Origin: Asterias amurensis
Lineage: Eukaryota > Echinodermata > Asteroidea > Forcipulatida > Asteriidae
Direction: 5' to 3'
Assembly: GCF_032118995.1 (NCBI RefSeq)
Contig: NC_092668.1
Location: forward strand, 7,047,501 to 7,111,500
Length of the DNA stretch: 64,000 bases
This document shows positions 3,873 to 61,165 of the stretch, one piece after another; the first letter of the stretch is position 1; every line of letters starts with the position of its first letter. The notes beneath the pieces are model-generated. The model did no database searches and was not told where the DNA came from. It worked only from the letters and a program-made list of their open reading frames with translations. The position numbers and the translations under genes are program-made.

Positions 3873-6800
3873 ACGGTGCAAATCGACCAAGTTGAGCATC
3901 CTGAACAACTTTCCTGTTTGGAGTCATGCAAAATTCGCAAAACCTTGGGAATTACAACTTTTAGGTGCAAAAGTGACGTCATAGTTTGACCAAAAATCGT
4001 CGATTACCGCCAAAATGTAACAGTGACGGAGTTCAAATTTGCACCGGCACACTCGGGTGGGGTATCCGCAAGAAGTAATCACGCTATTTCGGCTGTTAGG
4101 GGTGGCTCGAAAATTAAAATGTTTATTCCCCGAGGGAAAAGGGAAGAGCGGCCATCTTGTTTTTCTAATAGTCAACTCTGGCAATCGCGTTTTGACGGTA
4201 CAAATCGACCAAGTTGGGCATCCTGAACAACTTTCCTGTTTGGAGTCATGCAAAATTCGCAAAATCTTGGGAGTTACAACTTTTTGGTGCAAAAGTGACG
4301 TCATAATTTGACCAAAAATCGTCGATTACCGCCAAAATGTAACAGTGACGGAGTTCAAATTTGCACAGGAACACTCGGGTGGGGTATCCGCAAGAAGTAA
4401 TCACGCTATTTCGGCTTTTAGGGGTGGCTCGAAAACTAAAATGTTTATTCCCCGAGGGAAAAGGGAAGAGCGGCCATCTTGTTTTTCTAATAGTCAACTC
4501 TGGAATTCGCGTTTTGACGGTGCAAATCGACCAAGTTGAGCATCCTGAACAACTTTCCTGTTTGGAGTCATCCAAAATTCGCAAAACCTTGGGAATTACA
4601 ACTTTTTGGTGCAAAAGTGAAGTCATAATTTGACCAAAAATCGTCGATTACCGCCAAAATGTAACAGTGACGGAGTTCAAATTTGCAACGGCACACTCGG
4701 GTGGGGTATCCGCAAGAAGTAATCACGCTATTTCGGCTTTAAGGGGTGGCTCGAAAATTAAAAAGTTTATTCCCCAAGGGGAAAGGGAAAAGCGGCGATC
4801 TTGTTTTTCTAATAGTCAACTCTAGAAATCGCGTTTTGACGGTGTAAATCGACCAAATTGAGCATCCTGAACAACTTTCCTGTTTGGAGTCATGCAAAAT
4901 TCGCAAAACCTTGGGAATTACAACTTTTTGGTGCAAAAGTGACGTCATAGTTTGACCAAAAATCGTCGACTACCGCCAAAATGAAACAGTGACGAAGTTC
5001 AAATTTGCACCGGCACACTCGGGTGGGGTATCCGCAAGAAGTAATCACGCTATTTCGGCTTTTCGAGGTGGCTCGAAAATTAAAATGTTTATTCCCCGAG
5101 GGAAAAGGGAAGAGCGGCCATCTTGTTTTTCTAATAGTCAATTCTGGAAATCGCGTTTTGACGGTACAAATCGACCAAGTTGAGCACCCTGAACAACTTT
5201 CTTGTGTGGAGTCATGCAAAATTCGCCAAACCTTGGGAATTACAACTTTTTGGTGCAAAAGTGACGTCATAATTTTACCAAAAATAATCGATTACCGCCA
5301 AAATATAACAGTGACGGAGTTCAAATTTGCACCGGCACACTCGGGTGGGGTATCAGCAAGAAGTAATCACGCTAGTTTGGCTTTTGGAGGTGGCTCGAAA
5401 ATTAAAAAGTTTATTCCCCGAGGGAAAAGGGAAGAGCGGCCATCTTGTTTTTCTAATAGTCAACTCTGGCAATCGCGTTTTGACGGTGCGAATCGACCAA
5501 GTTGAGCATCCTGAACAACTTTCCTGTTTGGAGTCATGCAAAATTCGCAAAACCTTGGGAATTACAACTTTTTGGTGCAAAAGTGACGTCATAATTTTAC
5601 CAAAATCGTCGATTACCGCCAAAATATAACAGTGACGGAGTTCAAATTTGCACCGGCACACTCGGTGGGGTATCCGCAAGAAGTATTCACGCTATTTCGG
5701 CTTTTAGGGGTGGCTCGAAAATTAAAAAGTTTATTCCCCAAGGGAAAAGGGAAGAGCGGCGATCTTGTTTTTCTAATAGTCAACTCTAGAAATCGCGTTT
5801 TGACGGTGTAAATCGACCAAGTTGAGCATCCTGAGCAACTTTCCTGTGAGGAGTCATGCAAAATTCGCAAAACGATGAAAATTACAACTTTTAGGTGCAA
5901 AAGTGACGTCATAGTTTGACCAAAAATCGTCGATTACCGCCAAAATATAACAGTGACGGAGCTCAAATTTGCACCGGCACACTCGGGTGGGGTATCCGCA
6001 AGAAGTAATCACGCTATTTCGGCTTTTCGAGGTGGCTCGAAAATTAAAATGTTTATTCCCCGAGGGAAAAGGGAAGAGCAGCCATCTTGTTTTTCTAATA
6101 GTCAACTCTGGCAATCGCGTTTTGACGGTGCAAATCGACCAAGTTGAGCATCCTGAACAACTTTCCTGTGTGGAGTCATGCAAAATTCGCAAAACGATGA
6201 AAATTACAACTTTTAGGTGCAAAAGTGACGTCATAGTTTGACCAAAAATCGTCGATTACCGCCAACATATAACAGTGACGGAGCTCAAATTTGCACCGGC
6301 ACAGTCGGGTGGGGTATCCGCAAGAAGTAATCATGCTATTTCGGCTTTTCGAGGTGGCTCGAAAATTAAAATGTTTATTCCCCGAGGGGAAAGGGAAGAG
6401 CGGCCATCTTGTTTTTCTAATTGTCAACTCTGGAAATCGCGTTTTGACGGTACAAATCGACCAAGTTGAGCACCCTGAACAGCTTTCTTGTGTGGAGTCA
6501 TGCAAAATTCGCAAAACCTTGGGAATTACAACTTTTTGGTGCAAAAGTGACGTCATAATTTTACCAAAAATAATCGATTACCGCCAAAATATAACAGTGA
6601 CGGAGTTCAAATTTGCACCGGCACACTCGGGTGGGGTATCCGCAAGAAGTAATCACGCTAGTTCGGCTTTTGGAGGTGGCTCGAAAATTAAAAAGTTTAT
6701 TCCCCGAGGGAAAAGGGAAGAGCGGCCATCTTGTTTTTCTAATAGTCAACTCTGGAAATCGCGTTTTGACGGTGCGAATCGACCAAGTTGAGCATCCTGA

Positions 6801-9544
6801 ACAACTTTCCTGTTTGGAGTCATCCAAAATTCGCAAAACCTTGGGAATCACAACTTTTTGTTGCAAAAGTGACGTCATAATTTGACCAAAAATCATCGAT
6901 TACCGCCAAAATATAACAGTGACTGAGTTCAAATTTGCACCGGCACACTCGGGTGGGGTATCCGCAAGAAGTAATCACGCTAATTCGGCTTTTCGGGATG
7001 GCTCGAAAATTAAAAAGTTTATTCCCCAAGGGAAAAGGGAAGAGCGGCGATCTTGTTTTTCTAATAGTCAACTCTAGAAATCGCGTTTTGACGGTGTAAA
7101 TCGACCAAGTTGAGCATCCTGAACAACTTTCCTGTTTGGAGTCATGCAAAATTCGCAAAACCTTGGGAATTACAACTTTTTGGTGCAAAAGTGACGTCAT
7201 AATTTTACCAAAATCGTCGATTACCGCCAAAATGTAACAGTGACGGAGTTCAAATTTGCACCGGCACACTCGGTGGGGTATCCGCAAGAAGTATTCACGC
7301 TATTTCGGCTTTTAGGGGTGGCTCGAAAATTAAAAAGTTTATTCCCCAAGGGAAAAGGGAAGAGCGGCGATCTTGTTTTTCTAATAGTCAACTCTAGAAA
7401 TCGCGTTTTGACGGTGCAAATCGACCAAGTTGAGCATCCTGAACAACTTTCCTGTTTGGAGTCATCCAAAATTCGCAAAACCTTGGGAATTACAACTTTT
7501 TGGTGCAAAAGTGACGTCATAATTTGACCAAAAATCGTCGATTACCGCCAAAGTAAAACATTGGCGTGGTTCAAATTTGCACCGGCACACTCGGGTGGGG
7601 TATCCGCAAGAAGTAATCACGCTAATTCGGCTTTTCGGGGTGCCACGAAAATTAAAAAGGTTACTCCCCGGGCAGCAGGGAAAGGGAAGAGCGGCCATCT
7701 TGTTTTTCTAATAGTCAACTCTGGAAATCGCGTTTTGACGGTGCAAATCGACCAAGTTGAGCATTCTGAACAACTTTCCTGTGTGGAGTCATGCAAAATT
7801 CGCAAAACCTTGGGAATAACAACTTTTTTGTGCAAAAGTGACGTCATAATTTGACCAAAAATCGTCCGATTACCGCTAAAGTAAAACATTGACGGGGTTC
7901 AAATTTGCAGCGGCACACTCGGGTGGGGTATCCGCAAGAAGTAATCACGCTAATTCGGCTTTTCGGGGAGCTCGAAAATTACAAAGTTTATTCCCCGGGC
8001 AGGGAAAAGGGAAGAGCGGCCATCATGTTTTTCTAATAGTCAACTCTTGAAATCGCGTTTTGACGGTGCAAATCGACCAAGTTGAGCATCCTGAACAACT
8101 TTCCTGTGTGGAGTCATGCAAAATTCGCAAAACCTTGGGAATTACAACTTTTTGGTGCAAAAGTGACGTCATAATTTGACCATAAATCGTCGATTACCGC
8201 TAAAGTAAAACATTGACGGGGTTTAAATTTGCACCGGCACACTCGGGTGGGGTATCCGCAAGAAGTAATCATGCTAATTCGGCTTTTCGGGGTGGCTCGA
8301 AAATTAAAAAGGTTATTCCCCGGGCAGGGAAAATGGAAGAGCGGCCATCTTGTTTTTCTAATAGTCAACTCTGGAAATCGCGATTTGACGGTGCAAATCG
8401 ACCAAGTTGAGCATCCTGAACAACTTTCCTGTGTGGAGTCATGCAAAAATCGCAAAACCTTGGGAATTACAACTTTTTGGTGCAAAAGTGACGTCATAAT
8501 TTGACCAAAAATCGTTGATTTCCCTAAAAGTAAAACATTGACTTGGTTCAAATTTGCACCGGCACACTCGGGTGGGGTATCCGCAAGAAGTAATCATGCT
8601 AATTCGGCTTTTCGAGGTGCAACGAAAATTAAAAAGTTTATTCCCCGGGCAGGGAAAAGTGAAGAGCGGCCATCTTGTTTTTCTAATAGTCAACTCTGGA
8701 AATCGCGTTTTGACGGTGCAAATCGACCAAGTTGAGCATCCTGAACAACTTTCCTGTGTGGAGTCATGCAATTATTCGCAAAACCTTGGGAATTACAACT
8801 TTTTGGTGCAAAAGTGACGTCATATATTGACCAAAAATCGTCGATTACCGCCTATGTAAAACATTGGTGGGGTTCAAATTTGCACCGGCACACTCGGGTG
8901 GGGTATCCGCAAGAAGTAATCACGCTAATTCGGCTTTTCGGGGTGGCTCGAAAATAAAAAAATGTCTATCCCCGGGCAGGGAAAAGGGAAGAGCCGCCAT
9001 CTTGTTTTCTAATAGTCAACTCTGGAAATCGCGTTTTGACGGTGCAAATCGACCAAGTTGAGCATCCTGAACAACTTACCTTTGTGGAGTCATGCAAATT
9101 TCGCAAAACCTTGGGAATAACAACTTTTTTGTGCAAAAGTGACGTCATATATTGACCAAAAGTCGTCGATTACCGCCAAAGTAAAATATTGACGGGGTTC
9201 AAATTTGCACCGGCACACTCGGGTGGGGTATCCGCAAGAAGTAATCACGCTAATTCGGTTTTTCGGGGTGCCACGAAAATTAAAAAGTTTATTCCCCGGC
9301 CAGGTAAAAGGGAAGAGCGGCCATCTTGTTTTTCTAATAGTCAACTCTGGAAATCGCGTTTTGACGGTGCAAATCGACCAAGTTGAGCATCCTGAACAAC
9401 TTTCCTGTGTGGAGACATGCAAAATTCGCAAAACCTTGGGAATTACAACTTTTTTTGTGCAAAAGTGACGTCATAATTTGACCAAAAATCGTCGATTAGT
9501 AAAACATTGGCGTGGTTCAAATTTGCACCGGCACACTCGGGTGG
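3873..9544. repeat. Tandem satellite array, about 18 units of 322-326 bp
   Basis: The landmark ACTCGGGTGGGGTATCCGC recurs about 18 times at 321-326 bp spacing. Units in the left two thirds are about 322 bp and have ATTCCCCGAGGG or ATTCCCCAAGGG. Units right of about 7540 are about 325 bp, carry ATTCCCCGGGCAGGG and have GTAAAACATTG in place of ATGTAACAGTG. All but one unit keep TGACGTCA, the consensus CREB/ATF site (exception near 4619). The pattern at 5005-5505 returns at 6291-6791 (four units), and a shared one-base loss links 5663 and 7268 (five units). This indicates higher-order repeats made by unequal exchange. Open frames on both strands change phase from unit to unit and are not genes. 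Confidence 0.95.
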
Positions 9545-10641: not shown

Positions 10642-11023
10642 AGGGACACGTTGCCTGGGATCGGTCGAGTTGGTCCTTGAAAAGCGTTTATAACAGTTTG
10701 TTATAAAATGCATCTGGTTAGAAAGATGTTTTAAAAGTAGAATACAATGTTCCACACACATTTGCCTCGAAATTGTGTGGTTTTCCTTTTACTTTGCGAA
10801 CTAACACGGTCGGCCATTTATGGGAGTCAAAAATTTGACTCCCATAAATGGCCGACCGTGTTTGTCAACGAGGTAAAAAGAAAATCACGCAATTTCGAGT
10901 GATACTTGTGTGGATCATTATATTCTACTTTTAAAATATCTTTCCAATCGCATGCATTTTATAACAAACGGTTACAAACGCTTTTCAAAGACCAACTCGA
11001 CCGATCTAAGGCAACGTGTTCCT
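10642..11023. mobile_element. TTAA palindromic element, family B, copy 1
   Basis: Long imperfect palindrome with ends AAAGGGACACGTTGCC and GGCAACGTGTTCCTTT and a centre of CCATTTATGGGAGTCAAA repeats, flanked by TTAA at 10638 and 11024. The paralogous block at 20437 has a single TTAA at the same place, so this is a direct empty-site comparison. The TTAA target suggests mobilisation by a piggyBac- or Kolobok-type transposase; none is seen here. Confidence 0.9.
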
Positions 11024-11027
11024 TTAA

Positions 11028-11675
11028 GAACTCCCCGCACGGTTTTGAGTTCATGCCACTTTCGGACGACAGACGATCAAACACAGATCTTTCCCGCGCT
11101 TTTGCGACCTGTTGGTTGTCATGGTACCAAGCATTAGCCGGAATACGTGGTATGCCTTTCCTGCTGGAATCCAAATCGTTGCTATTATCTTTTCCAGAGC
11201 GCATTGATGCTTTCTTGAGTCTGTTTATCTCACGGGTCATCCATTTGTCTAAGAACAGGTCTTTCTTGACTATGCCGCTGCTCCCGTCTGGGAAGAGAGC
11301 AGGCAGTGAGATGCGTCTGGCGATTGCGTCTGCAGGCGTAGCCGGAGGGAAGCTAAATTTCCTTTTGCGCTCGCCCGTCGGCTTCAATGCCTCATCAGTT
11401 ATAGTATCTCCGTTGGCGTCTTCATTTGTCCCAACTTCTGAGAAGGAGAGCCTGCCGAGGTCACGCACGAGGTTCTTCTTGTATCTTGAGAGAGAGCAGA
11501 TCTCGATGTGAGATCTTCGAATGCACTTTTCCTGCTCCTTGTCGAGACGTCTTAGCTCCTGATCAAGACGCTCCCTCTGGATGGAGTTCCTCCGGTGCAG
11601 CTTCAGTGATGTTTCGTGTTCCCCATGACTTGACACGAGACCACGGTCCTTGGTGAGCGGGTCAGAGCTGTTCAT
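11028..11675 (-). pseudogene. Truncated duplicate of the 241-aa unknown gene (copy 1)
   Basis: Reads on the minus strand from ATG at 11675 (context AAAGATGAAC) for 216 codons, nearly identical to copy 2 at 20362-21087. A TTAA element at 10642-11023 then replaces the natural C-terminus. The frame runs on into the element and stops at about 10959, adding a tail ([11 protein letters not shown]...) encoded by the transposon. About a hundred further bases of the original 3' part are also missing beyond the element. By eye about a dozen base differences separate the copies in the shared coding part and most change an amino acid, as expected if this copy is unconstrained. Function unknown, as for copy 2. 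Confidence 0.7.
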
Positions 11676-12231
11676 CTTTGCCAATCAAAGTCCATATAAA
11701 AATATATCAACTGTCCACCGTCAGGCAGCCACAAAAATACAGTTCCTTGGCACCCTGCTTCACGCCGTTCTTCGAAATTTCCCGTTTCCAATTGGCAGTT
11801 GAATGTTACTTTCTCTTAATGAAGGTTCACTTTATTTCACATGGAATAATTATTTCCAAGAGTTATGACTTTTTGTGTATGTTCATGTTATTGTTTCATA
11901 CATTTTTGCCCTCACCACTTTGTTGAGTATCCAGAAATTCTGCGATGCAAGTAAACAACATCAAAGATCATGACGAATGCTCATATTAGGGATACACACG
12001 TTTGGAGTCCAGTATATAAAGGAGATACGACTCAATGCCCCTCTGCTACCAAATAAATTAGGGAAAGCACCGTTGAACTCCCATCTGATTCATGGCCAAA
12101 ACTTCATGGCCAACTCATCATAATTATACGGCTGCTATCTGAGTTTGAATAGAAACAAATTCCAGGTTGAACTCGTTGTTTATTTCAGGATCTGATGTTC
12201 GTTTCATTATTGTATTGGACATCGACTGAGA

Positions 12232-15200
12232 CCGGTTTATGAACCTGAAACATTTGAATACTTTTGTCAGATATGAACATTTTAAAATGGAAAATATAAA
12301 ACTAGTTAAGGAAATTATTCAATCCAAGTACTTCCTTACTACTTCCATTGACCTGAAAGATACGTACTTCGCAATCCCAATGTGTGAGATTGATCAAACT
12401 TATCTGTGCTTTTCACGGGAGAATCAGTTCTTTAGATACACCTGTTTACCTTTCGGGCTGAGCTCAGTCCCTCGAATTTTCACAAAGGTGATGAAACCAG
12501 TCATTGCATCTGCCAAATCGAATACCCTAAAAAATGAGTATGGCAATTATGATGCAAATATTGCAGTAAACCAAACTATAGGAGAAGAGACAACATGGTG
12601 GTTGGATATTCCATGCGATGATGTAAAATCGTCAATTAAAAAAACACCCATTACTATTGTTATCTGTTCAGATGCCAGTAATACCGGCTGGGGGTGCAGT
12701 CTCCGAAACGGACAACTCTTATACACACATGGTAAGTGGTCCAAAACCCAACAACAGTTGCATATCAATATGTTAGAGTTATTGGCAGCTAAAAATGCAT
12801 TGCTAACTCTCTGTGAAACTCAATAATGTTCATGTTCTGATCAAATCAGACAATAGCACAGCTGTGTCTTATATTTCGAGAATGGGGGGAACTGTTGGTC
12901 CCTTAAATGACCTCGCATCAAAAATCTGCCTTTGGTGTATCGAAAGAAATATTACTCTATCCGCAACCCATATCGCAGGAGTAGATAATACCACTGCAGA
13001 TTACCTTTCTCGTAAGAAATTGAATAAAGAATTGAGTCTCAACTCACGTATATTCTGGGATGTTGTCAACAAAACCCAAATATACCCAGATGTTGATTTG
13101 TTCGCATCTTAATAAAGATATATTGCTATGTGTCATGGAAATCAGACTCTAATGCATGGGCCATTGACGCTTTCTCAATGCAGTGGTTTGGTATAACACC
13201 TTAACATTTGTCCACCTTTCTGTTTGCTCTGTAGAACTTTGGACAAAATATCACGAGAGCAAACTCCTGTTTGCCTTCTCATCGCCCCTCTGTGGAAGGC
13301 CCAACCGTGGTTTCCACAGTTGCTACAGATGGTAATTGCAAACCCAATCAAACTACCAGAGTTTTGTCTGATGCATCAACCACTACTGCCGGTTCCAAAC
13401 CTGCACCTGGTCGCTTGGGTCATCTCAGGGAATGTTGGAAAACAAAAGGCATTTCGGCAGAAGCTTCCAACCTCATCGCAAACTCATGGCGGTCAAGTAC
13501 AAAGCTACAATATGAATCAGCTTGGAAAAGCTGGACTAGTTGGTGTAGTGGACAACAAGTTAATCCATTATGTCCCACTGTAGCAGACTTAGTAAATTTC
13601 TTAACCAAGGCTCATTCAAATTGAAAATCATATTCCACGTTAAACACTTACAGATCAGCTCTGTCTTCAGCCCTACCTAGAATTGAGGGACATGTAGCGG
13701 GACAACACCCTCTAATAGTACGTTTAATGAGGGGAGTATTTAATACAACACCCCCGAAACCGAGATACTCAAAAACATGGAAAGTTTCAATTGTTTTAGG
13801 TTATTTAAAATCTTTGCCAGTTAACAATGAACTTTCTTTATTAGTTTTAAGTCAGAAACTTTTAACTCTAATAGCTCTTGTATCAGCTCAAAGAACCCAA
13901 ACGCTGGTTAGTATAGATACTAGTCACTTGAATATTTCAGTTAATTCCTGTTATTTCCGTTTTGGATTTATTGAAAACGAACTGCCCAAAAAGAGGATTG
14001 GGACATAACAAAATAGTTATACCAAAATTTGATGAGAACCCAAAGTTATGTGTTCTCCGCACATTGAACGATTACTTGGATCGTACTGAGTCTCTTAGAA
14101 CAGTTAGTGAGGAAACTAAACTGTTCATATCAACCAAAAAGCCACATAAAAAAAGTAACCACTGGAACGTTGGCTCGGTGGATGAAAGCCGTTTTATGTG
14201 CAGCGGGAATAGATCCCTCTGTTTACACTGCTGTTACGATCCAAAAAACTCCAAACTATCCGTGAATATAAATCACTCAACAAGCCTGAATTTCCTCAGA
14301 TGCAACAAAGAAATCAAACAAGGTGACACTGATGTATAAGAACACAGAAACAAAGCGATTTAATGATAAAACTATCAACCACTTCAGTTACCGATTCGGT
14401 TTAACAAATATACAATGATTGATTAAATCAAATGTACATTAACAAATGGTTCTTATACAAAATAAGTATCTTACGGGCTAATACGTCGACAGCAACAGAA
14501 GATACGGTGAGGAACACAAACACTGGCTTTAAACGATCAGCTCCAGGGGCGATAAATAAGTTCTTTGCCGATGTGACTATGAGCTATCACGGGGTAAACT
14601 CACTCCGATAAAATGTCCAGAAGAAGACGAAACAACAACGGGTACACAATCTGACACCCGCCACAAAATATGGGGAAAAGGCCCCAAAATACCGAACTGT
14701 AGACTAAGTTCGAAAATGTCCTTTCCGGAATCTAAATACGCTCTTTAACTGCACTCGGTCAAACGCGAACTCTATCACAAGCTCCTTCAACGAGTTGTAT
14801 CACAATTACAGAAGTCGTAGCTTCCACCAGTCTTGCGTAATGTGTCCTCTCGAAAATTTCTCACAGCCCGTATTTAAAAGATTTGTGTGTGGTTTTCTAG
14901 AAAGTACTACACTAGATTATTCTAGATCCTTCATAACAGATAAGCGCCGCCCACAGTAGGTCAACGGACTTACACACATAAAATGATTGACAGCGTGTGC
15001 ACATGCATTACGCAGGGTCTCATAACACTGCTCATAGTTTTCGCAGTGCAGCTACATCGGCAGCTTTTGCGCATGGGGTAAAACTCCAAGAAATTTTGAA
15101 AACAGCCGACTGGTCAAATGCAAGTACATTTGCTAAGTTTGATAATAAGCCAACCGAGGAAGTATCCTTCGGTAAAGTAGTGCTTAGTTCTAGTACATGT

Positions 15201-20142: not shown

Positions 20143-21668
20143 ATTGCATAGGATAGAGGTCATTGCATACGACACTGGCACATAATATTCTGGAGGTTGT
20201 GAGTTCAAATCCTGTTGCTCTGGTAATTTTGTCTTTGTACAACCCAGATTGAATAATTTACATTAAATGAATGCACTTGCATATCTTACACTAATATTTA
20301 CATTTCATGGTATGCATTTCACTGCAATCAGCTTTGCCCCTCTTACTGTCCAAACCAAGTTTTATTTATGTTCAGATTTCCTTGATGATTTTGGCGAAAG
20401 TGGTACGGTAAAGTTCCTTCGTTTTCTCACACTTTTTAAGAACTCCCCGCACGGTTTTGAGTTCATGCCACTTTCGGACGACAGACGATCAAACACAGAT
20501 CTTTCCCGCGCTTTTGCGACCTGTTGGTTGTCATGGTACCAAGCATTAGCCGGAATACGTGGTTTGCCTTTCCTGCTGGAATCCAAATCGTTGCTATTAT
20601 CTTTTCCAGAACGCATTGATGCTTTCTTGAGTCTGTTTATCTCACGGGTCATCCGTTTGTCTAAGAACAGGTCTTTCTTGACTATGCTGCTGCTTACGTC
20701 TGGGAAGAGAGCAGGCAGTGAGATGCGTCTGGCGATTGCGTCTGCAGACGTAGCCGGAGGGATGCTAAATTTCCTTTTGCGCTCGCCAGTCGGCTTCAAT
20801 GCCTCATCAGTTATAGTATCTCCGTTGGCGTCTTCATTTGTCTCAACTTCTGAGAAGGAGAGCCTGCCGAGGTCACTCACGAGGTTCTTCTTGTCTCTTG
20901 AGAGAGAGCAGATCTCGATGTGAGATCTTCGAATGCACTTCTCCTGCTCCTTGTCGAGACGTCTTAGCTCCTGATCAAGACGCTCCCTCTGGATGGAGTT
21001 CCTCCGGTGCAGCTTCAGTGATGTTTCGTGTTCCCCATGACTTGACACGAGACCACGGTCCTTGGTGAGCGGGTCAGAGCTGTTCATCTTTGCCAATCAA
21101 AGTCCATATAAAAATATATCAACTGGCCACCGTCAGGCAGCCACAAAAATACAGTTCCTTGGCACCCTGCTTCACGCCGTTCTTCGAAATTTCCCGTTTC
21201 CAATTGGCAGTTGAATGTTACTTTCTCTTAATGAAGGTTCACTTTATTTCACATGGAATAATTATTTCCAAGAGTTATGACTTTTTGTGTATGTTCATGT
21301 CATTGTTTCATACATTTTTGCCCTCACCATTTTGTTGAGTATCCAGAAATTCTGCGATGCGAGTAAACAACATCAAAGATCATGACGAATGCTCATATTA
21401 GGGATACACACGTTTGGAGTCCAGTATAAAGGAGATACGACTCAATGCCCCTCTGCTACCAAATAAATTAGGGAAAGCACCGTTGAACTCCCATCTGTTT
21501 CATTGTATCCTGGATCCTGGTCCTTTTCGACTTCGGACAAAACTTCATGGCCAACTCATCATAATTATATGGCTGCTATCTGAGTTTGAATAGAAACAAA
21601 TTCCAGGTTGAACTCGTTGTTTATTCAGGATCTGATGTTCGTTTCATTATTGTATTGGACATCGACTG
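20143..21668 (-). repeat. Segmental duplication, copy 2
   Basis: Partner of 10441-12229. It lacks the TTAA element and keeps about 100 bp lost in copy 1, so it is closer to the ancestral state. It includes a SINE-like B box (GAGTTCAAATCC) near 20201, downstream of the coding frame. Confidence 0.85.
20362..21087 (-). CDS. Uncharacterised 241-aa basic coiled-coil protein (copy 2)
   Basis: Intronless minus-strand frame from ATG at 21087 (AAAGATGAAC; an upstream TTG is not a likely start) to a stop at 20362. I do not recognise the family. Residues about 18-76 are charged and helix-like (RERLDQELRRLDKEQEKC), suggesting a coiled coil. A basic patch RKRK follows at 103-106, and RRIS at 120-123 and RRNS at 28-31 fit a PKA-type phosphorylation consensus. 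The C-terminus is Ser/Lys-rich. No signal peptide or membrane segment is seen. ATTGG and an AT-rich TATA-like stretch lie just upstream of the ATG. The single exon and a truncated second copy could mean a processed gene or one exon of a larger gene. A distant resemblance to small coiled-coil proteins such as CCDC190 is possible but unproven. Confidence 0.5.
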   Translation of the reverse strand: MNSSDPLTKDRGLVSSHGEHETSLKLHRRNSIQRERLDQELRRLDKEQEKCIRRSHIEICSLSRDKKNLVSDLGRLSFSEVETNEDANGDTITDEALKPTGERKRKFSIPPATSADAIARRISLPALFPDVSSSIVKKDLFLDKRMTREINRLKKASMRSGKDNSNDLDSSRKGKPRIPANAWYHDNQQVAKARERSVFDRLSSESGMNSKPCGEFLKSVRKRRNFTVPLSPKSSRKSEHK

Positions 21669-26089: not shown

Positions 26090-29000
26090 ATGGCTTCATA
26101 TTTTGATGAACACGACTGCCAACCTACCAATGGATCAGGTCCAGATGCAAGCACGCTTCTACGATGGGCAAGGTATTAATTAAAACATATTTATAGTATA
26201 CTCAAACAAACCAAAAATCACGTTCTTTAATAATAATTTCATTTTTTTTTTAAGTTGAAAATTAATAATAACTGTAGAGTGTAGGCCCTAACTTTGGTCA
26301 AAAATTAATTAAACTAGGATTAAGTCTTGTGACTGAGACAAACATGTCAACTTAGACCTGTAGACCACTAAACTAACTGTAGCTGTGCTTCCTTTTTTTG
26401 TTTTTTATTTACAATTTTTTTGACATCAGTTGTAATTGTATAACGCCAATGACTGACGATTGCAATGTCATATATTATTATATTCAATGATCATTGTCAT
26501 TAAATTGATAATACGACCATCATAATGTAGGCTATAATTATAGGCGTTGCGACAACGTAACCCTCCCCGCCATCGGGAGGTGGGTTATGTTCGCAACTTC
26601 TTAAGATCAGAGATGAAAATCTTGAGAGACAAAAATAGGAGTACAGCTAATCTCAAGTTACTTATCGTGCTTATAAAAATGGGGGTCTACTCTATTGGTA
26701 CAAAGTTAAAACCAATGTTTGTATGAGAAAGATTGTCAGCTTGGCGTTTATATCCCCCTACTGTGTGTTCGCTTAACGGGAAGATCCTCTTAACTAACGA
26801 TCAAACAGGCAAAATAAAGTGCCATTATGAATCAGGGGAGATGGAGGGACAGAATTATCACAAGTCATGGTTTAACTGGGTAAAATCAAAATTATTATTC
26901 TTTATCCCCGATGCAAATTTAACATATATCGTTGCGGTACCCGCTGCCAAAACATAGGATTCAAACTGCCTTTAGCTACCGGGCTACTCGGTAGTCTAGT
27001 TGGTAAGACACTGCTCTAGAATTGCAAGGGTCGTGGGTTTGAATCCCACCCGATTAACATGCCTACAGGTGATATTTTTTCACAGGACCTGGGAAGTACT
27101 GAGTATGCAGTGCTAACACACATCAGTGTATGGGTAAAATCAAAATTAATATCCTTTAACTATGAAAGAGGTTTGTTCAGCTATCGTCTCATTGGAACGA
27201 ACCTTACACGTTCTAGGAGGTACATGTAGGTGTTGGGCGCGATCGGTCAATCTGCGCGATAAACCGATCGCGCTGCGCTATTGAACGATCAAATTAAGAT
27301 CAATTGGTCGCGCAGCAATTGGTCGATCGCGCAACAATCGGTCGATCGCGCAACAATCGGTCGATCGCGCAATGACATCTTTGCGCGATTGACCGATTGC
27401 GCTACGAGTATTTTTTCCCGTTATCAGTGGATCGCGCAGGAAAGGCTTTGCGCGATCTACCGATCGTGCAGGAATGGGTTTGCGCGATCGACCGATAGTG
27501 CAGGAAAAGTTTTGCGCGATCAACCGATCGTGCAGGAAAAGTTTTGCGCGATCTACCGATCGTGCAGGAATGGTTTCGCGCGTTCGACCGATCGTGCAGG
27601 TAAACTATTCCTTGGGGCGATTTTTCAAAGCAATAAAATTCATAGCAGGACAAATTTTCAGTATCACCATAGTGATTTATATAGTGACGTCACACTACGA
27701 TTGATTTGCAGTTACAATCAATGTTACATCTTTGTGAATTTGGCCCCTGAATATCAGCCGATCGCGCCAAACAATTCCTGCACAATCGGCCGATCGCGCA
27801 AAACCATTCCTGCACAATCGGCCGATCACTCATAACCATTCCTGCACAATGGGCCGATCGCGCTGAGCCATTCTCGCACGATCGGTTGATCGCGCGCATG
27901 TTCGTTGCTGAATGTTACGCGATCGACCGATTGTTGCGCGATCGACCGATTGTTGTGCGATCGACCGATTGCTGCGCGACCAATAGATATTTCAATAGCG
28001 CAGCGCGATCGGTCGATAGCGTAGCGCGATCAACCGATCGCGCAGATTGACCGATCGCGCCCAACATAGGTACATGTAGTAGTAGTGTAAAATAAAAGTC
28101 TGTTTTGAAAAATGGAACATCAGCCAACTTCTGACGGTATCCACATCTGGGTATCACTCTCAGCTAGTTGAACTCAATTAAATTCAATTTCTTTAATTCA
28201 TTACAGATTCCAAGTCAAAAGTGTAAAAAAAATTCCCTGTGTGCACTAAAAAGAATCAATTTGATATTCATTAAAAAACAAAAACATTACATTTTATATA
28301 CACTTGAATTTATTACAAAAATTTTCTTTTAAGCAATAAAAAGGCTAGTTCATATTTCAAAAAGAGAGAAACATCAAAATCTCACCATCAATGATTTAAA
28401 GGCAGTTGACTGGACACTTGGTAGTTACTCAAAATAATTATTATTATAAAACCTTACTTGGTAACGAGTAATGGGGAAGGTTAATAGTATAAAACGTTGT
28501 GAGAAACGGCTCCCTCTGAAGGGCAAAGTAGTTTTCCCCGAATTTGAGACATCAGATTTAGAACTTGCGGTGTCGAAATCAAGCATCTGAAAGCACACAA
28601 CTTTCACCCAGGGGTATAAATGGGTACCTGCGAGGGTAGAGGTTGATATTGTGAATGAAAAGCTTTCGGAGCGCCACGGCAGCTCGGGGCTGTATACTCC
28701 CTAAATGGGAGCTGAGAAATATTGAAAGGATGTTTATTGGCCCAATGACCAGGGGACTAATGTAAAGCGCATTGATACGGTTTATTGTGAAATGCGCTAT
28801 ATAAGAACTTGTTATTATTATTATTAACTTCGTGTGACAAAGTGGTTTTTTTTTTCTTTCATTATTATCTCGCAATTTCGACAACCAATTGACTCAAATT
28901 TCCACAGGTTTGTTGTCCCATGCATGTTGAGACAAAGTGACAAGACTGGTCTTTGACCATTACCAGTAGTGTCCAGAGTCTTTAAATAGAAAAACAACAA

Positions 29001-35000: not shown

Positions 35001-36724
35001 AGCCGGTACGTCGATGCGAGCTGCAGCTCATGGTTACAACGTCACCAGCGACGGTCAGTAAATGATGAGATGGCTACAGTGTACCAAGCTCAGGGAAATG
35101 GGGACGACCTGTTAAAGGAACACGTTGCCTTGGATCGGACGAGTTGGTCTATAAAAAGCGTTTGAAACCGTTTGTTATGAAATGTATATGTTTAGAAAGA
35201 TGATTTAAAAGTAGAATATACTGATCCACACAAGTATCACTCAAAATTGCACGGTTTTCTTTTTACGTCGCGAACTATCACCGTCGGCCATTTATGGGAG
35301 TCAAAATTTTGACCCCCATAAATGGCCGACCGTGTTATTGGACGAGGTAAAAAGAAAACCACGCAATTTCGAGGCATATTTGTGTAGATCATTGTATTCT
35401 ACTTTTACATCATCTTTCTAACCATATGCATTCTATAACAAACGGTCACAAAATGCTTTTCAAAGACCAACTCGACCGATCCAAGGCAACGTGTTCCTTT
35501 AAGGAGTGGCCGTCCGAGGGTGACTACTACAGTAGAAGAAAGTGAACAAGTCCATAAAGCCTGACACCACTCTCGAGGGATTGCGACGCATCCTGATCAG
35601 GAAATGGCAGGGGATTGACCAGGTACAGATCAGAGGTCTCATTGGGAGTATGAGAAGACGACTCCTTGGCGTACAGGACAGTGATGGAGGACACACTAAG
35701 AACTGAGGACAGGATATCAGCAGTTTTAGAGTTAAAGATACGGCAATAAATTTTATGGTCAAGTAAACCAAACGAGTTTGTGTCTTTTGTCTTGATTTTG
35801 TCTGTGTGTGAGGCTTGTGTGAGTTCCCTTCTGGAATTGGGGTGAATAGGGGCTTTTGCAACTTTTGAAATTCGACCTTAAGCCACTCAAGTGCCCATAA
35901 ATCCACCCAACAACATCGTAGCGCAACACAAGATGTTTCAAAATGTGCAGAAATTAACGGTTTATAGAAATGAATAATTATTTTTTGGTATACTATTTCA
36001 GGTTCCGATAAATCTGACCATTTGTAAGTGTTTAGATACTTTATTGGCACAGTTTATAAGGGAGGTTTGCAGAGACACCATGTGAATATCTCGTTTCTAG
36101 TAGTGTTGGTTTTGAAAAGAACCTGTGGCTATAAACAACTACTCCAAATAGAGGTACTCACATTGTGTTACTGGCCTGTATGCTTCGTTTTTGGAAGGGC
36201 AAGGGCACTAAGGCATTTTCTCCTTGGTAAAGAGCACCCTATGAGGAACCTGTAAATTTCTTCCTCAAATATTTCAATGGCATCAAGGCAATGAGCAGGG
36301 GGCATAGAGGCAATCGCCTCCATTGCCTCCAGAAAACTTCTTTTAAGAATTATCCTGGTGTAGAGTTTGTTTGCTGTACCTGACAGACAAAGATAAACAG
36401 GCCTTGAATTATCCTACGGCACCCACAGTAAATAGACCGATCCATTAAGCTCCGCCCCATTGCGTATTAACCAATCACAACCCAATGCACAACCAAATTA
36501 AATGGTCCAGTGACCAGGGTACTAATGTTGGAAGCACTTTGAGACGCCCTTCAGGTGTTAAAAGTTCTATTATCTTATCGGTAGATTGACATGTGCACTG
36601 GAATAAGACTAATAAACAAATACAACTCATTACTAATATTCTCGTTCTCTTTCTTGTCCTTCAGGCCAGAGCAAAACAGAGGGAGTTTGAAAGAGAATCT
36701 CTGCACAGCGCTATGTATTCATAA
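26090..36724 (+). CDS. RNF181: E3 ubiquitin-protein ligase RNF181 homologue, five exons
   Basis: Exons: 26090-26172, 29193-29237, 29746-29837, 30743-30927 and 36665-36724, all GT/AG and in consistent phase, giving 154 aa (human protein 153). The start [10 protein letters not shown] matches vertebrate RNF181 and has an in-frame stop 6 nt upstream. A RING-H2 zinc finger spans residues 77-117 (C77, C80, C95, H97, H100, C103, C114, C117) and is followed by the family hallmark [16 protein letters not shown]. The last exon ends HSAMYS, like the human HGAMYT. RING-H2 proteins of this family recruit an E2 enzyme and transfer ubiquitin in the cytosol. The 465 bp of coding sequence occupy 10.6 kb because introns 1 and 4 are filled with mobile elements. 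AATAAA overlaps the stop region at 36723. All zinc ligands are present, so the product should be functional. Confidence 0.96.
26904..27157 (+). mobile_element. tRNA-derived SINE in RNF181 intron 1
   Basis: A tRNA-like head (GGTAGTCTAGTTGGTAAGAC as A-box region, GGGTTTGAATCCC as B box) is followed by a short body. A near-identical stretch TGGGTAAAATCAAAATTA precedes (26877) and ends (27130) the unit, either a long target duplication or two tandem copies. Loss of normal tRNA stems argues against a working tRNA gene. Confidence 0.65.
27231..28066. mobile_element. TU-like foldback element with GATCGACC-type tandem repeats
   Basis: Inverted arms of about 370 bp (27231-27605) and 320 bp (27745-28066) begin and end with TGTTGGGCGCGATCGGTCAA and its complement. 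The arms are made of tandem units of about 19-35 bp around GCGCGATCGACCGAT, itself close to a palindrome. The spacer carries ACCATAGTGATTTATATAGT, related to sequence at 58034. TAGG borders both ends, and a longer copy of AGGTACATGTAG lies just outside each end (27218, 28068), a probable target duplication. The architecture recalls the sea urchin TU foldbacks. No protein is encoded. It lies in intron 1 of RNF181. Confidence 0.85.
28396..28985. mobile_element. TTAA element, family A, split by a SINE
   Basis: Complete ends with TTAA at 28396 and 28982. The two halves are separated by the SINE at 28604-28825. Confidence 0.85.
28604..28825 (+). mobile_element. 5'-truncated SINE with LINE-like tail
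   Basis: Body with GACCAGGGGACTAATGTAAA and GCGCTATATAAGAACTTG, then a (TTA)n tail, flanked by the 5 bp duplication AACTT (28599 and 28826) inside a family A element. The tail matches CR1/L2-type 3' ends, the likely mobilising LINE. Confidence 0.8.
29427..29630. mobile_element. TTAA element, family D, partial
   Basis: Shares TACATGCTAAAATAATTTT, the GAGACGAAAA fold and TACAAAAAGTACCC with the complete copy at 17708, but lacks the left part. In RNF181 intron 2. Confidence 0.6.
29900..30016 (+). mobile_element. tRNA-derived SINE head
   Basis: GGATGAGTGGTCTAGTGCA and the B box GGGTTCGATTCC, then CACTTGTGCCCTTGAGCAAG. The element is cut at 30017 by a family B TTAA insertion. In RNF181 intron 3. 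Confidence 0.65.
30021..30381. mobile_element. TTAA palindromic element, family B, copy 2
   Basis: Complete, TTAA at 30017 and 30382, inserted right after a SINE sequence. Centre GGCCATTTTGTGGAGTTAAA and its complement. Confidence 0.85.
30386..30735. other. Intronic repeat-like sequence
   Basis: Contains CTCTACCAGCCATGCTCCTA and similar stretches that look like SINE body, but the family could not be fixed. The RNF181 branch point and acceptor for exon 4 lie at the right end. Confidence 0.3.
30945..31700. mobile_element. Two SINE or LINE-tail fragments
   Basis: 30945-31290 reads on the minus strand as a LINE/SINE 3' region ending in (TTATT)n near 30950, with AAGCGCTTTTCATGCCCGAA. 31300-31700 is a + strand tRNA-derived SINE: TTGGTTTGAGTCCTGC as B box, TTAAGCAAGACACTTAACC, and a GTGCGCTATATAAGAATAG tail. 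Confidence 0.6.
31902..32518 (+). mobile_element. 620 bp non-autonomous DNA transposon, copy 1
   Basis: Terminal inverted repeats CATGGAGGAAGGAATAGAAG with the complement at the right end. The 7 bp duplication CTTGAAC lies on both sides (31895 and 32519). Copy 2 at 33516 is inverted and highly similar. No transposase is seen. A 7 bp duplication is uncommon and would suit Dada- or P-like relatives. Confidence 0.85.
33199..34197. mobile_element. TTAA element, family A, split by the 620 bp transposon
   Basis: Ends TTAAAGGCACTGGACACTGG and CAGTGCCTTTAA, interrupted at a GATACAC site by the inserted 620 bp element. Confidence 0.8.
33516..34138 (-). mobile_element. 620 bp non-autonomous DNA transposon, copy 2 (inverted)
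   Basis: Same terminal repeats as 31902-32518 in opposite orientation. Flanks AATACAC (33509) and GATACAC (34139) are a 7 bp duplication with one later change, since uninterrupted family A copies read GATACAC. With copy 1 it makes a 620 bp inverted pair about 1 kb apart inside RNF181 intron 4. Confidence 0.85.
34511..36054 (+). mobile_element. Internally deleted Tc1/mariner transposon with long terminal repeats
   Basis: TA dinucleotides border both ends. Inverted repeats of about 215 bp (34511-34725 and 35845-36054) begin AACTGCGCCAATAAAGTATC. Near 34950-35090 the DNA reads [16 protein letters not shown], a Tc1-type helix-turn-helix start. Near 35555-35704 it reads [12 protein letters not shown] and [12 protein letters not shown], ending in GGHTKN, a Tc1-type C-terminus. 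The whole DDE catalytic core is absent. A family B TTAA element (35116-35498) sits where the core should be. The copy cannot encode a transposase. Confidence 0.8.
35116..35498. mobile_element. TTAA palindromic element, family B, copy 3
   Basis: Complete, with TTAA at 35112 and 35499; centre GGCCATTTATGGGAGTCAAA and its complement. Nested in the Tc1-type remnant. Confidence 0.9.
36171..36342. mobile_element. GCCTGTATGCTTCG-type MITE, copy 1
   Basis: Shares TGGCCTGTATGCTTCGTTTT, GGCATTTTCTCCTTGGTAAA, GCACCCTATGAGGAA and GAGGCAATCGCCTCCATTGC with copies at 49411, 53487, 57194 and 63705. SINE-like sequence follows near 36500-36560 (GTCCAGTGACCAGGGTACTA). Confidence 0.65.
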
Positions 36725-44035: not shown

Positions 44036-46868
44036 ATGACGGGATTAAGGTCGTTTCTTGGGGCGACCCTCACACTGGGATTCTTATGCACGGTTTTTGC
44101 CCAGATGCCCCTCTTCTCGACAGAGACGGGCTACGATTTAATATTCAGCACCGCCGAGTTGGCCCAGCGTCAGCTTACATGGCTGAACTTAGCGAGGCAG
44201 ATGGGGGTGGACGCACCGGAGGGTGTGGAGAACTGCTCACTCATCGGGTTATACATGGTGATCCGAGAGGGGACAACGTTCCCAAGTGAGGCTGACACCA
44301 TGGCGCTGAATTCCCTACAGCAGAGGATGCGATCGCAGCCCATCAACTCAGCCCTCAGGTATCTCAAACAAGTACCCGATAGCAGGCTGCCGATGAACAT
44401 GGCGGGAAAGCTGTCCGAGGCAGGACGACAAGAGATGAAGATGATCGCAATGCGACTCAAGTCCCGCTTCACTGAGCTCTTCTCAGGACCAGACATTGAT
44501 CTATCCCTGTTCAACTTCCAGTCCATGAACACCACTGCTAGCATCGAGAGTGCCGTGGCGTTCGTCCAGGGACTCGTTGGCGAGAACCAGATCTGTGAGA
44601 CCATATCTTCGGAGATGAACGTCACGGTCAACTGCCAGGAGAACCCCAGGACGTCCCGCGTCTCGACACCCACCTCAGCGTATATCCCCAACCAACCGAT
44701 CTCCATGGACTCCCTTCTCCGACCATATATCACCGAAAGGAACTGTCTGAGTGATGCCAACAAAGGGAGGACGAACACGGAGGTAAGAGCTTTCCAGATG
44801 GGCCGCGAGATGGCACAACTGACACAGAAGATTGTCACCAAGTTCACACCCCCTCGGGCTCAACCGTGGAACATCACCCAAAGTAAGTTAATGTTTGAAA
44901 TCCAAGTTTGGGATAAACGCAAAACAAATTACATACAATTTGTCCCATTGATTGGAGAAGCTCATTGGTTATAACTCTCTACACGATTGCGCCGATAGGC
45001 GTAGCCTGTTTCTACTCTTGTGTCCAACTCACACGCCGCAAACAATGCCATGTTTTATCAATAACTAAAATTTTCAAAATAAAGAACTGTGCGGAGTTTT
45101 TAAATGTGGCTAGCCATGCCTAAGATGTTATATAGAAAGCATTACCATCCCCGTGTTCCCTTCCAAACCTCTAACACTGATCTGTGGTTAAACGGACCCA
45201 ATGTGCTTAAAGCTCACAAACCAAAAAAGATAAGGTTTCAGCCGAAACGCAATCATTGTAGCGTGTGTGACTGTTCGGTCCTAATAATTGCTGAGATTTA
45301 TATAGGAACAATAATCTGCTTGTGAAAATCATAGTATGTAATTTTCTTAGACTCCCTGCACTAATGCCACAAGCCAAAAATAGTGCCGTCATTGAGGTAA
45401 ATAAAGACGATATATCATTGGCTGTGCACTTCTTCATTGTTTGTCATCAAAGCTGGCGGCCAAAGATCATAGGGCCCTCATAATTGCTTTAAATGGCTGA
45501 GATTTATAAAGAAATGATAATCTGCTTATGAAAATCATGTTATGTTAATCAATAGACTTTTTGCATAAGACGTCACATGCCCCCAAAAGTGTCCTCATTG
45601 ACGTCAATAAAGAACTTAGATATCATTGGCTGAAAGTCGTGCACATGTACATTTGTGTTCGTCATCAAAGATAGCGACCAATGCAATAAGCAATTCTGTG
45701 AGAAATTTCATGCAAACAACAATAACTCCCGGGGAATTTATTTCAGGCGAGGTTCAACTCCTGTCCAAGATCTGTGGGTTCCACAACGCCCTGTTCAAGG
45801 ACAACAGCACTTGGTGTCAACTCTTCGAGTACGAGGATCTCAATGTGGCCGAGTACGAACGAGAACTTCAGCACTATTGGGACGAATCGTACGGATTCCC
45901 GGTCAATTCGCGGGTAGCCTGTCCGCTGATCAACGACACCTTCGAGTATTTGGAGGGATTCACCGCAAGAAATCCCAACTCCAAGTAAGTGCATCTCTTT
46001 GGAACTCCTTGCATGCCTGGTGCCTGTTTCCCTACAGCCTACAAACTACATGTAGACTGTTTTGAGAGGAATATTAATTCCTACCTTTCACCTCCCTGAG
46101 TTCTTTCCACTTTAAATAATATATTTGTTTTCTTCTTTTTGTTGCCCCGTACCAAGACGCGATTTTTCATCAATGACCTAATTCCGTGTGGTTAACCTGC
46201 AGTTTACTTGCAATCTATTTGTTTTTTGTTTGCTTTTGTTTTTTTATAGCAGACCTCCTTGTCCAAAGGACAGGCAGGCTGTGGGAATCCGAAAATGTTG
46301 GGGTTGAGTTGAACCGTGTGTTCCCTCCGTTATTATGTGATATTGTTTTTCCCTGTACTACAGTCTCCCCGTGATGAGCATGAAGTTCACCGACGAGAAC
46401 ACTCTCCTTCGGCTCATTAGTCTCCTGGGTATCAACAGAGACCAACAACAGCTCGCGGCCAACAACTACGCACGCAACCGCAATCGTGAATTCCGCTCAG
46501 CAAAAATGGCGCCATTTGCCGGCAACCTCGCCATCAACCTCTTCCGTTGCCAGGAGGCCGGCGGCATCTTCTTCTCCGATCAGACCTACAGGGTGAACGT
46601 GATGCTGAACGAACTTCCGGTCAACGTCACCTACTGCCCGAACGGTCTGTGTGACATCAACGTCTTCAAGAATGGGTTCATGAAGCAGGCTGGACAGTGC
46701 TTGGTCGACAAAGAGTGTCACAGAGCTATACGGCTTGGACCAAATGGTGGAGGAGGACTTGGCGGTGGAAGTAGAGCAGCTGCTTCGAGCTTTGCCCAAT
46801 CACCGCTCAATGTCTTCTTTGCTTTGGCTGCAATAGTTGCGGCAAAGATTGGCTATGGTGGATTATAG
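44036..46868 (+). CDS. Secreted MINPP1-like protein lacking catalytic motifs, three exons
   Basis: Exons 44036-44882, 45747-45984 and 46364-46868 join in phase with GT/AG borders and give 529 aa (human MINPP1 487). The start has an in-frame TAG at 44009. Residues 1-23 form a signal peptide. Order and spacing follow the histidine acid phosphatase family MINPP1 (for example AGRQEMKMIAMRLKSRF, ELQHYWDESYGFPVNSR, NYARNRNREFRS). Known members remove phosphates from inositol phosphates using an RHGxRxP motif and a distal HAE. Here the first reads REGTTFP (residues 77-83) and the second TDEN (371-374), and the Arg usually found before the AAFLQGL-like stretch is also absent. Several N-glycosylation sites remain. 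The C-terminus is a Gly/Ser/Ala stretch and a hydrophobic tail without Lys/Arg at its end, typical of a GPI signal; there is no SDEL. It is probably a cell-surface pseudophosphatase; a ligand-binding role is inference. Confidence 0.93.
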
Positions 46869-53654: not shown

Positions 53655-56600
53655 TAATAATAATAATAAGACATTTGTAAAGCGCCTAATGCAAAAGCCT
53701 CTAAGCGCATAAAAGAAACAATAAAATAAACAATTAGAGAAAGATACAAGATACAAATAGGCAAATTACAAAAAAGAAGCTTTAAACAATCAAGTTTTCA
53801 ACAGGGACTTAAAGCATTGTAAAGTATTAGCTTGGCGAATATGCACAGGAACACTATTCCAAAGAATTGGTGCGGCGTAAAAAAAAGATCTGTGGCCATA
53901 AAAAATGGAAGAAGCACTAGTAGCAGAAAGCAATGACTGTTGAGATGATCGTAAAGTCCGAGGGGGGGAATAATGATGAACAAGTTCAGATAAATTAGCA
54001 GGAGATTGACATGTTTGAGCCTTGAAAGTTAACAGAAGAATTTTGTAAACTGTTCGAAACTTAACTGGGAGCCAATGCAATTGCATTAGTACAGGTGTAA
54101 TATGGTGAGAACGAGGCAGACAAGAAACGAGGCGAGCAGCAGTGTTCTGTACACGCTCAATTTTAGCAAGATTTTTATCGGGGAGTCCATACAGAAGTGA
54201 ATTGCAGGAATCAAGTCTAGTAGTGATGAAGGCATGAACAAGACGAAGAGTAGTTGCTTCATCCAGGTAGCGGCGAATTTGTGATATTTTCCTAATAGCC
54301 ATGAGAGCTCCTTTGGAAACATTATCAACATGTCTACTCATGCACAATGATGAATCCATAATAACACCGAGGTTACGGGCAAATTCAGATGGTTCAATGA
54401 CAGACTGGGCAATTTGTACTGTTGGTGGAGAAATCTTTTTTGCGAAACGAGATCTCAAAAATAAAATCTCAGTTTTTGAGTCATTCAAAGCAAGTTTATT
54501 TGACAACGCCCAAGATTTGACATCTTGAATGCACACTTCAACTTTTGCAATGGCAGAAGCGCGATCAGCTGGATCAAATATAATGTAAAGCTGGGTGTCG
54601 TCAGCGTAAGCAACACTAGAAATACCATGGGCAGCAATGAGGTCTTGCAAGGGTGCACTGAACAATATAAATTCAAGTGGGTGCACTGAACAATATAAAT
54701 TCAAGTGGCCCAGAGATGATGGCGATCTGATTTAACATTGTTGATGAGAACATGCTGGGTTCTGTTGTTCATATAAGAAGAGAACCAGTTAAGGGCAGTT
54801 CCAGTAATTCCATAGCGTGAAGATAAACGTTGGATGAGATGCTCATGGTTGATAGTGTCAAATGCAGCTGAAAAATCTAACAGCACAAGGATTGCTTCCT
54901 TATGGTTGTCCAGTGCACGTAAGATTTCATCCTGCACACGAACAAGAGCAGTCTCAGTACTGTGGAAAGGACGATAAGCAGACTGCATTTTAGCATGGAG
55001 GTTATTTTCATGGAGATAGTCATGAAGTTGACTAACAACAGCACGCTCAATCAATTTGGAGATGAATCTCAAGTTAGAGATAGGACGATAATTTGACAAA
55101 CACTCTGGGTCCAAATGTTGCTTTTTCAGAAGTGGCAGGATGCAAGCCTCCTTAAGAGTCCCTGCCTGTAAGAATGTACCAAATTAGGGGGGGGGGGGTG
55201 TGATTCATGGGTTCGCAGATCTTCTTCTAAAAAATTAGAGTGATACACCATCATACCAAACGAATAAATCCAAAATTTTAGTTTGCTGACGCATTCGGTT
55301 TTGGAGTTACCAGTTATCAAAGTTTCGGCCAAAAGACCCCCGAGAAACGAATAGTACATTCCCTGTAAACACAAAAATGTGCGCCAAGCTCGTCCCAACA
55401 AAAGTAAAACATTTTTTGAAACCTCCAGTTGGGCTTATAACAAAAGTAAAAAAAAAAAATTGGGATCTCGTTGGCGCATCATGTTATGCGCACCTGAACC
55501 TTTGACGAACAGTGCCCACGTGCCACTTTCAACGCCTCATAATTCAACGCGCCTATAAGATCCCATGAATTAAACAAGTTTACATGAAAGAGCTTACATC
55601 CCTTAAACAAATGTAAGTGCAAAGTGCGTGGGATCTCGTTGGCGCAGTGAGATAATAGAGGTCAAAGTTCAAATTTGACGAATATATTGCGTTTTCGCAC
55701 CTCCGTTATGTGTTGCTAAGAATCTATATAATCATAAAACGCACACAATTTAATGGGATTATATTGGCGCGTGGATTTCTAGACGACGCAAAATCGTCCG
55801 AAATAGGCAGTAGTGTAGTTTCATATGACCTTTGACCTTTAGTATATTGGTGGGCCAACATGATCCCAATTATTTTTCAATTAAAATCTGTTTAGGAACA
55901 CTCAACTTAACCAAATACAAGAAAACATTGATGGGATCTTGTTGGCACAGATACTTACAGTGATGAGAAAAGCGAATGTTGTGCCAATTTAGGCCAAAAT
56001 GTGTGGAATCAGCAATACTTTAGAAAATTTTCAAAAAATCTTTTGACATACAAGTTGCAGAGATCCCAAGGTTCTTTTTTCATTTGTCATTAGATGAAAG
56101 CTGTTCCAACACCCAGATGCCATAAAACAACTTTTTGTTGTTGGCGCGCAAGGTTACGGAGGTGCGAAAACGCAATATATTGGTTAAATTTGAACTTTGA
56201 CCTCTATTTTTTCTCTGCGCCAACGAGATCCCACGCACTTTGCACTTCAATTTGTTTTAGGGATGCAAGCTCTTTCATAGAAACTTGTTTAATTCATGGG
56301 ATCTTATAGGCGCGTTGAGTTATGAGGCGTTGAAAATGGCACGAGGGCACCTGTTTGTCAAAGGTTCAGGTACGCGTAAACATGACGCGCCAACGAGATC
56401 CCAAACTTTTTTTTTTACTTTGGTCATAAGCCCAACTGGAGGTTTCAAAAAATGTTTTACTTTTGTTGGGATGACCTTGGCGCACATTTTTGTGTTAACA
56501 GGGAATATACTATTCGTTTCACGAAGGCTTTTAGGCCGAAACTTTGATAACTGATAACTCCCAAACCGAAAGCGTCAGCAAACTAAAATTTTGGATTTAT

Positions 56601-60975: not shown

Positions 60976-61165
60976 GAGTTTAGATAGTTTCCAGGATGGC
61001 TCAATGAACAGAGGGGTAGTGTAATGCGCTTTGGCTTAATGTATAAAAGCGCCCAATATTATTATCTTTGGGGTTGAACAAAGAATTGACTAGAGTAATA
61101 TTCGAACCAACGACCTCCGGATTAACGTGCCGGCGCTCTACCAACTGAGCTATCTAGCCCTATAT
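60976..61165 (-). mobile_element. tRNA-derived SINE, minus strand
   Basis: Minus strand reads GGGCTAGATAGCTCAGTTGG (A box) and TTGGTTCGAATATTACTC (B box), then a tail with AAGCCAAAGCGCATTACAC near 61025. The acceptor ends do not pair as in a working tRNA. Confidence 0.75.

Follow-up and report, generated by a model that had tools for sequence, protein, structure and literature searches.

We find that the gene at positions 44036-46868 (+) of the window, the whole 64,000-nucleotide stretch of Asterias amurensis DNA analysed here, encodes a MINPP-family protein that has lost the catalytic set but kept its fold-level residues and reading frame, and that, judged by its sequence, appears to be a pseudophosphatase. 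It is likely that the product is a secreted, probably membrane-anchored pseudophosphatase which derives from a MINPP1 duplicate and acts by binding, and the gene has probably been retained for some function apart from the ancestral chemistry. A paralogue with a complete catalytic set lies on the same chromosome; with one copy complete and the other catalytically stripped, this starfish chromosome offers a clean pair for studying the role of the MINPP fold without catalysis.

The window gene consists of three exons, which upon splicing give an open reading frame of 529 codons with a stop codon ending at 46868, and both introns are bounded by GT-AG. The exon coordinates, frame and splice sites put forward in the original prediction were confirmed in this way. 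The features of the gene and its product are as follows.

44036-44882 (+), exon 1: residues 1-282 plus 1 base, with the putative signal peptide, the N-terminal half and the altered RHG motif
44036-44101 (+), likely signal peptide, residues 1-22, by eye and hydropathy, with cleavage near A22|Q23
44123-44125 (+), E30, aligned with paralogue K56 and BtMinpp A31 (PMC3969271)
44264-44284 (+), REGTTFP at residues 77-83 where RHGxRxP is expected: the nucleophile His is Glu78, Arg is Thr81, and Arg77 is kept
44537-44539 (+), A168 in place of the third active-centre arginine: R194 in the paralogue, Arg in 58/58 aligned bacterial MINPPs
44720-44722 (+), R229, kept, aligned with BtMinpp R183 (PMC3969271)
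44883-45746 (+), intron 1, GT-AG, phase 1
45747-45984 (+), exon 2, by splicing and open reading frame
45884-45886 (+), E329 in place of a conserved lysine: K352 in the paralogue, Lys in 47/58 bacterial sequences
45985-46363 (+), intron 2, GT-AG, phase 2
46364-46868 (+), exon 3: carries the altered distal motif, the C-terminal region with its hydrophobic tail, and the stop codon
46392-46400 (+), DEN, residues 372-374, in place of HAE (HSE in the paralogue): proton donor Glu to Asn374, His to Asp372
46803-46865 (+), hydrophobic C-terminal tail, residues 509-529, by hydropathy only: possible GPI or membrane anchor

The protein contains 13 cysteines and 7 N-glycosylation sequons between a signal-peptide-like N-terminus (best 12-residue hydropathy mean 1.92) and a hydrophobic C-terminus. 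By hydropathy alone a GPI tail is plausible both here and in the paralogue, and the signal in the window protein is made uncertain by a lysine in the tail and its GYGGL end; surface anchoring is plausible. The sole Pfam family recognised is PF00328, histidine phosphatase branch 2 (E 1.2e-20; 74.7 bits against a curated cut-off of 23.6), and the match runs from residue 74 to 442 and covers positions 7-352 of the 354 in the model. The protein thus resembles the MINPP1/MINPP family in its branch-2 profile from end to end and in its secretory-type N-terminus. NCBIfam returned no match for the translation of exon 1 or exon 3. Antisense to exon 1 we observed a 229-codon open reading frame (window 44173-44859 (-)), which is perhaps a by-product of high third-position GC.

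The known branch-2 histidine phosphatases use the histidine of the RHG motif. The active centre of BlMINPP is described as His45 with Arg44, Arg48 and Arg142, the three arginines coordinating the scissile phosphate, plus an HAE motif with the proton donor Glu401 (PMC7762957). Just one of these three arginines is kept in the window protein (R77), the other two corresponding to T81 and A168, and both catalytic histidines are now acidic (E78 and D372). Neither an RHGxR signature with its nucleophilic histidine nor an HAE-type proton-donor motif is present, the respective stretches reading REGTT and DEN. Compared with the paralogue, BtMinpp and BlMINPP, the window protein therefore differs in the nucleophile histidine, the second and third arginines and both the histidine and the glutamate of HAE. 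The altered residues E78 and T81 in REGTTFP, DEN at 372-374 and the missing third arginine, now seen to be Ala168, had all been called beforehand and stand in the translation, and the accompanying statement that every catalytic signature was replaced is right in that the motifs are altered and slightly too strong in that R77 and R229 are kept. The acidic residue E30 occupies a position which in BtMinpp belongs to pocket S5 and is often lysine in other MINPPs (PMC3969271); lysine stands there in the paralogue and in 31 of the 58 bacterial sequences, with an alignment that is less sure at E30 than elsewhere. With this set of replacements, the protein would be expected to lack catalytic activity.

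The bacterial sequences used in these comparisons were gathered with a degenerate DNA pattern (FAHAET), because a protein query for bacterial relatives found no match. The pattern yielded at least 119 loci, and among those listed R[HE]GxR stood upstream of HAE in 89 open reading frames and was missing there in 30; a redundancy filter at 70% identity kept 58 of the 89 MINPP-like frames. Inspection of 10 of the 30 dropped loci revealed that 8 start right at the border of the retrieved sequence (L054, L062, L064, L076, L081, L086, L133 and L136), while L115 starts 107 nt in and L049 starts well inside its stretch and is without the motif. We then considered the 26 columns that are at least 80% conserved in the 58 bacterial sequences and identical in the paralogue, a conservation which is partly there by construction because the sequences had first been picked out by FAHAET and then filtered for R[HE]GxR. 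In the window copy, 5 of the 6 catalytic columns are lost, as against 2 of the 20 others, namely K329E and P378R (Fisher p 0.0018). Once the five columns that the DNA pattern itself determines are excluded, the loss amounts to 3/4 catalytic against 1/17 other columns (p 0.012), a figure on which the R[HE]GxR filter still bears. Together with the PF00328 match, the 18 of 20 non-catalytic conserved columns that are kept uphold the proposal of a MINPP-family pseudophosphatase with its fold kept.

The paralogue is located ~6.4 Mb from the window gene on the opposite strand (G000:C21:641893-646516 (-)) and has three exons encoding 534 aa. It carries RHGTR, the third arginine and HSE, and with these residues it should be an active enzyme. 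The two proteins are identical at 196 of 506 aligned residues (39%); intron 1 falls at the same aligned codon and in the same phase in both genes, and intron 2 falls in the same phase and within one aligned codon. This identity and the common gene structure speak for the MINPP descent of the window protein. All 13 of its cysteines align with cysteines of the paralogue, in agreement with their earlier description as intact. The same description of the glycosylation sites holds less well: the seven sequons are present, but only two of them align with one of the ten in the paralogue. At the places of the PMAAN and LYNE stretches, which have been reported as MINPP-specific (PMC9432691), the window protein reads PFAGN and MLNE and the paralogue PFAGN and LLNE, with P, N and N-E kept and M and Y in neither. 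In a tree of both copies and the 58 bacterial MINPPs, which holds no further animal MINPP, the two copies are nearest to each other. Protein searches of the genome in both directions recovered the six exons of this pair, three per gene, and no further copy. The window gene is not among the nine exon-level matches of a Pfam family search of the genome, so that a third copy of similar divergence might be missed. We conclude that the window gene and the paralogue are an old duplicate pair.

The existence of such a pair bears on the main rival to the ligand-binding reading, a regulatory role on the paralogue, in which the dead copy would form a complex with the MINPP1 paralogue, or compete with it for anchoring sites or partners, and tune its activity. 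Consistent with this idea, a paralogue with the full catalytic set is present in the same genome, has the same exon plan and possesses a similar secretory start and a comparable C-terminal tail, and activators that are dead paralogues are documented in other enzyme families (PMC5201418, PMC3663545). However, no functional MINPP dimers were found in the literature consulted, the absence of the word "dimer" from PMC3969271 being weak evidence in the same direction, and the two proteins have diverged to 39% similarity and to mature net charges of -2 (window protein) and -24.5 (paralogue). We therefore regard a regulatory partnership as rather unlikely and return to the reading in which the window protein itself binds a ligand.

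The original prediction had suggested phosphorylated inositols as such a ligand. In BtMinpp, most of the active-site lining is described as basic (PMC3969271), whereas the mapped cleft positions of the window protein are net acidic. Taking nine literature-named positions as the cleft and counting only K, R, D and E as charged, the paralogue (K56, R104, H105, R108, R194, R252, H393, S394, E395) has a net charge of +4 and the window protein (E30, R77, E78, T81, A168, R229, D372, E373, N374) one of -2. Outside the cleft, the 476 remaining aligned positions (after paralogue residue 47) shift in the opposite direction, from -28 to 0. When sets of nine positions were drawn at random, a shift as extreme as that of the cleft occurred in 32 of 200,000 draws, the cleft set itself comprising only 9 positions. 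A narrower test of basic residues (histidine included) turned acidic gave 3/7 in the cleft set and 4/48 outside it (p 0.037), which is weaker. E329 points the same way; it was found by conservation and was kept out of the nine-position set. Because the cleft has gone from +4 to -2 and the remainder of the protein has moved the other way, binding of inositol polyphosphates in the old way appears unlikely.

These observations also weigh on the possibility that the protein sits at the surface as a receptor or sink and continues to bind inositol polyphosphates although it no longer cuts them. R77 and R229 do remain, and the proton-donor glutamate is changed to asparagine as in the BtMINPP variant E325N, for which the title of PDB entry 9qz0 reports a complex with InsP6; the same Glu to Asn change occurs in 9qz2 (A324D/E325N). 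Going by their titles, however, these mutants alter only HAE, so that RHGxR and the third arginine should remain in them, and the window protein changes those too. BlMINPP coordinates the scissile phosphate through three arginines (PMC7762957), two of which are gone here; both catalytic histidines have become acidic, and residues 30 and 329 are glutamate. For these reasons kept inositol-phosphate binding was set aside and the corresponding part of the original prediction is not sustained; we judge such a receptor improbable. A binding role for the window protein with another kind of ligand is favoured instead: since the former phosphate cleft is net negative, the ligand would more likely be a protein, a basic peptide or a cation.

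Another alternative is that the gene is a pseudogene which has begun to decay or on which selection is fully relaxed. At the five codons whose catalytic residue is lost, a minimum of 8 substitutions in 15 nt is required, or 0.53 per site. When the gene was left to drift neutrally in simulations, the frame stayed open in 26/400 runs at 0.05 per site, in 1/400 at 0.1 and in 0/400 at 0.2, 0.3 or 0.5 per site, and at 0.5 a mean of 4/12 mature cysteines was left; in a separate simulation of drift to 64% identity, 0/300 frames were open. The GC3 of the window gene is 0.68 against 0.38-0.40 GC in its introns (paralogue GC3 0.46), and the codon-position identities between the paralogues are 51/64/30%. 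On the other side, the branch of the window copy is about twice as long as that of the paralogue (1.01 versus 0.51), which is what relaxed constraint would also give. dN/dS between the paralogues had to be abandoned as unmeasurable because synonymous sites are saturated (four-fold identity 0.16 at 93 sites, against 0.23 from composition alone). Constraint on the window copy may have ended recently, if the catalytic changes came earlier, because drift at 0.05 per site leaves 26/400 frames open and at 0.1 still 1/400. Positive selection at the catalytic sites could have sped the changes there, and this would also be a form of selection. Overall, with catalytic columns lost while cysteines, other conserved columns, splice sites and frame were kept, and given the drift simulations, the gene looks like a constrained pseudophosphatase; the earlier verdict that it is not a decaying copy is borne out, and a decaying pseudogene is very improbable. 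Codon bias was also considered as a proxy for expression of the window gene and is a weak one, as actin exons calibrate GC3 poorly: the three best-scoring actin 3' exons have a GC3 of 0.65-0.79 and others among 20 actin loci range down to 0.37, several wrong-strand values being discounted.

Least probable of all, and very improbable, is an enzyme with a new mechanism using E78 or D372 in the altered active site. The acidic residues at the aligned cleft positions E30, E78, E329, D372 and E373 would make metal binding possible in principle, but the known enzymes of branch 2 use the RHG histidine. An amoebic relative does have an unexpected Mg-dependent pyrophosphatase activity, but that protein is described as having Arg41, His42, Arg45, Arg152, His334 and Asp335 at its site (PMC7926622), and the window protein keeps only the first arginine at the six matching catalytic positions.

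To look at the fold of the window protein, we modelled exon 1 and exon 3 separately together with bacterial relatives (47/58 fragments in the exon 1 alignment and 45/52 in that of exon 3) and obtained models of moderate confidence, with a mean pLDDT of 67.2 and 72.5, respectively. In Foldseek, the top 32 matches of exon 1 are all MINPPs, phytases or acid phosphatases (best E 1.7e-3; TM-scores 0.23-0.43 by query length), and the top 17 of exon 3 are histidine acid phosphatases and MINPPs, including human lysophosphatidic acid phosphatase type 6 and the A. niger pH 2.5 acid phosphatase (best E 1.3e-2; TM-scores 0.26-0.38 by query length). With both exon models no Foldseek match reaches E 0.001, and the TM-scores are low, as would be expected of fragments. 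The models support, without proving, a histidine phosphatase fold for the window protein.

Inactive enzymes kept by selection are already known as a kind, and pseudophosphatases are best known from tyrosine phosphatases. For the histidine acid phosphatase branch we found one described inactive case, the Dictyostelium counting factor component Cf60, a secreted protein of the same fold which is reported to be without acid phosphatase activity and to regulate the size of multicellular structures (PMC7926622). Cf60 is described as HAP/phytase-like and is the nearest functional precedent, likened to the window protein by description only; its control of group size has no known counterpart in the window protein. 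Human MINPP1 and Drosophila Mipp1 are named here as relatives, the sequence comparison having covered the paralogue and bacterial MINPPs only. According to a citing statement, Mipp1 is tethered to the plasma membrane on its extracellular side (PMC7705663), so a MINPP at the surface would not be unusual in invertebrates. A literature search, mostly of titles and abstracts and with few subscription journals, found neither a report of a naturally occurring, catalytically dead MINPP nor any paper on the MINPPs of echinoderms.

Taken together, we propose that MINPP1 underwent an old duplication on the same chromosome, after which one copy would have kept the catalytic residues and the window copy would have lost them and kept the cysteine-rich fold. 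The product would be secreted, probably become anchored in the membrane, reside at the cell surface and act there by binding instead of hydrolysis; by analogy with Cf60, it may work outside the cell as a binding protein for a ligand other than a polyphosphate. More tentatively, and as one possibility among several, the acidic cleft might serve as a recognition site, making the protein a surface receptor on the histidine phosphatase fold for a cationic ligand such as a basic peptide, a polyamine or calcium, with a Cf60-like role in extracellular signalling or recognition.

Several further elements were observed in the window. The same dispersed repeat with an open frame occurs at window 35502-36053 (-) and just behind the MINPP1 paralogue. 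Two open reading frames of ~240 aa (window 20365-21096 (-) and 10962-11684 (-)) appear almost the same by eye for the greater part, diverge near the end and have no Pfam match; they are apparently a duplicate pair. At window 12230-14336 (+), a reverse-transcriptase fragment (PF00078, E 9.8e-8) is followed by open reading frames similar by eye to a tyrosine recombinase, an arrangement known from DIRS-like elements; two of these frames were scanned and gave no Pfam match. Reverse-transcriptase-like frames at window 53793-55183 (-) represent a probable LINE, the one at 53793-54731 by a weak PF00078 match below the curated cut-off and the other by eye. In the list of open reading frames, several similar ones are repeated along window 3900-9500 (-). 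Rfam identified two tRNA genes or tRNA-derived sequences, at window 26985-27057 (+) and 61087-61159 (-).
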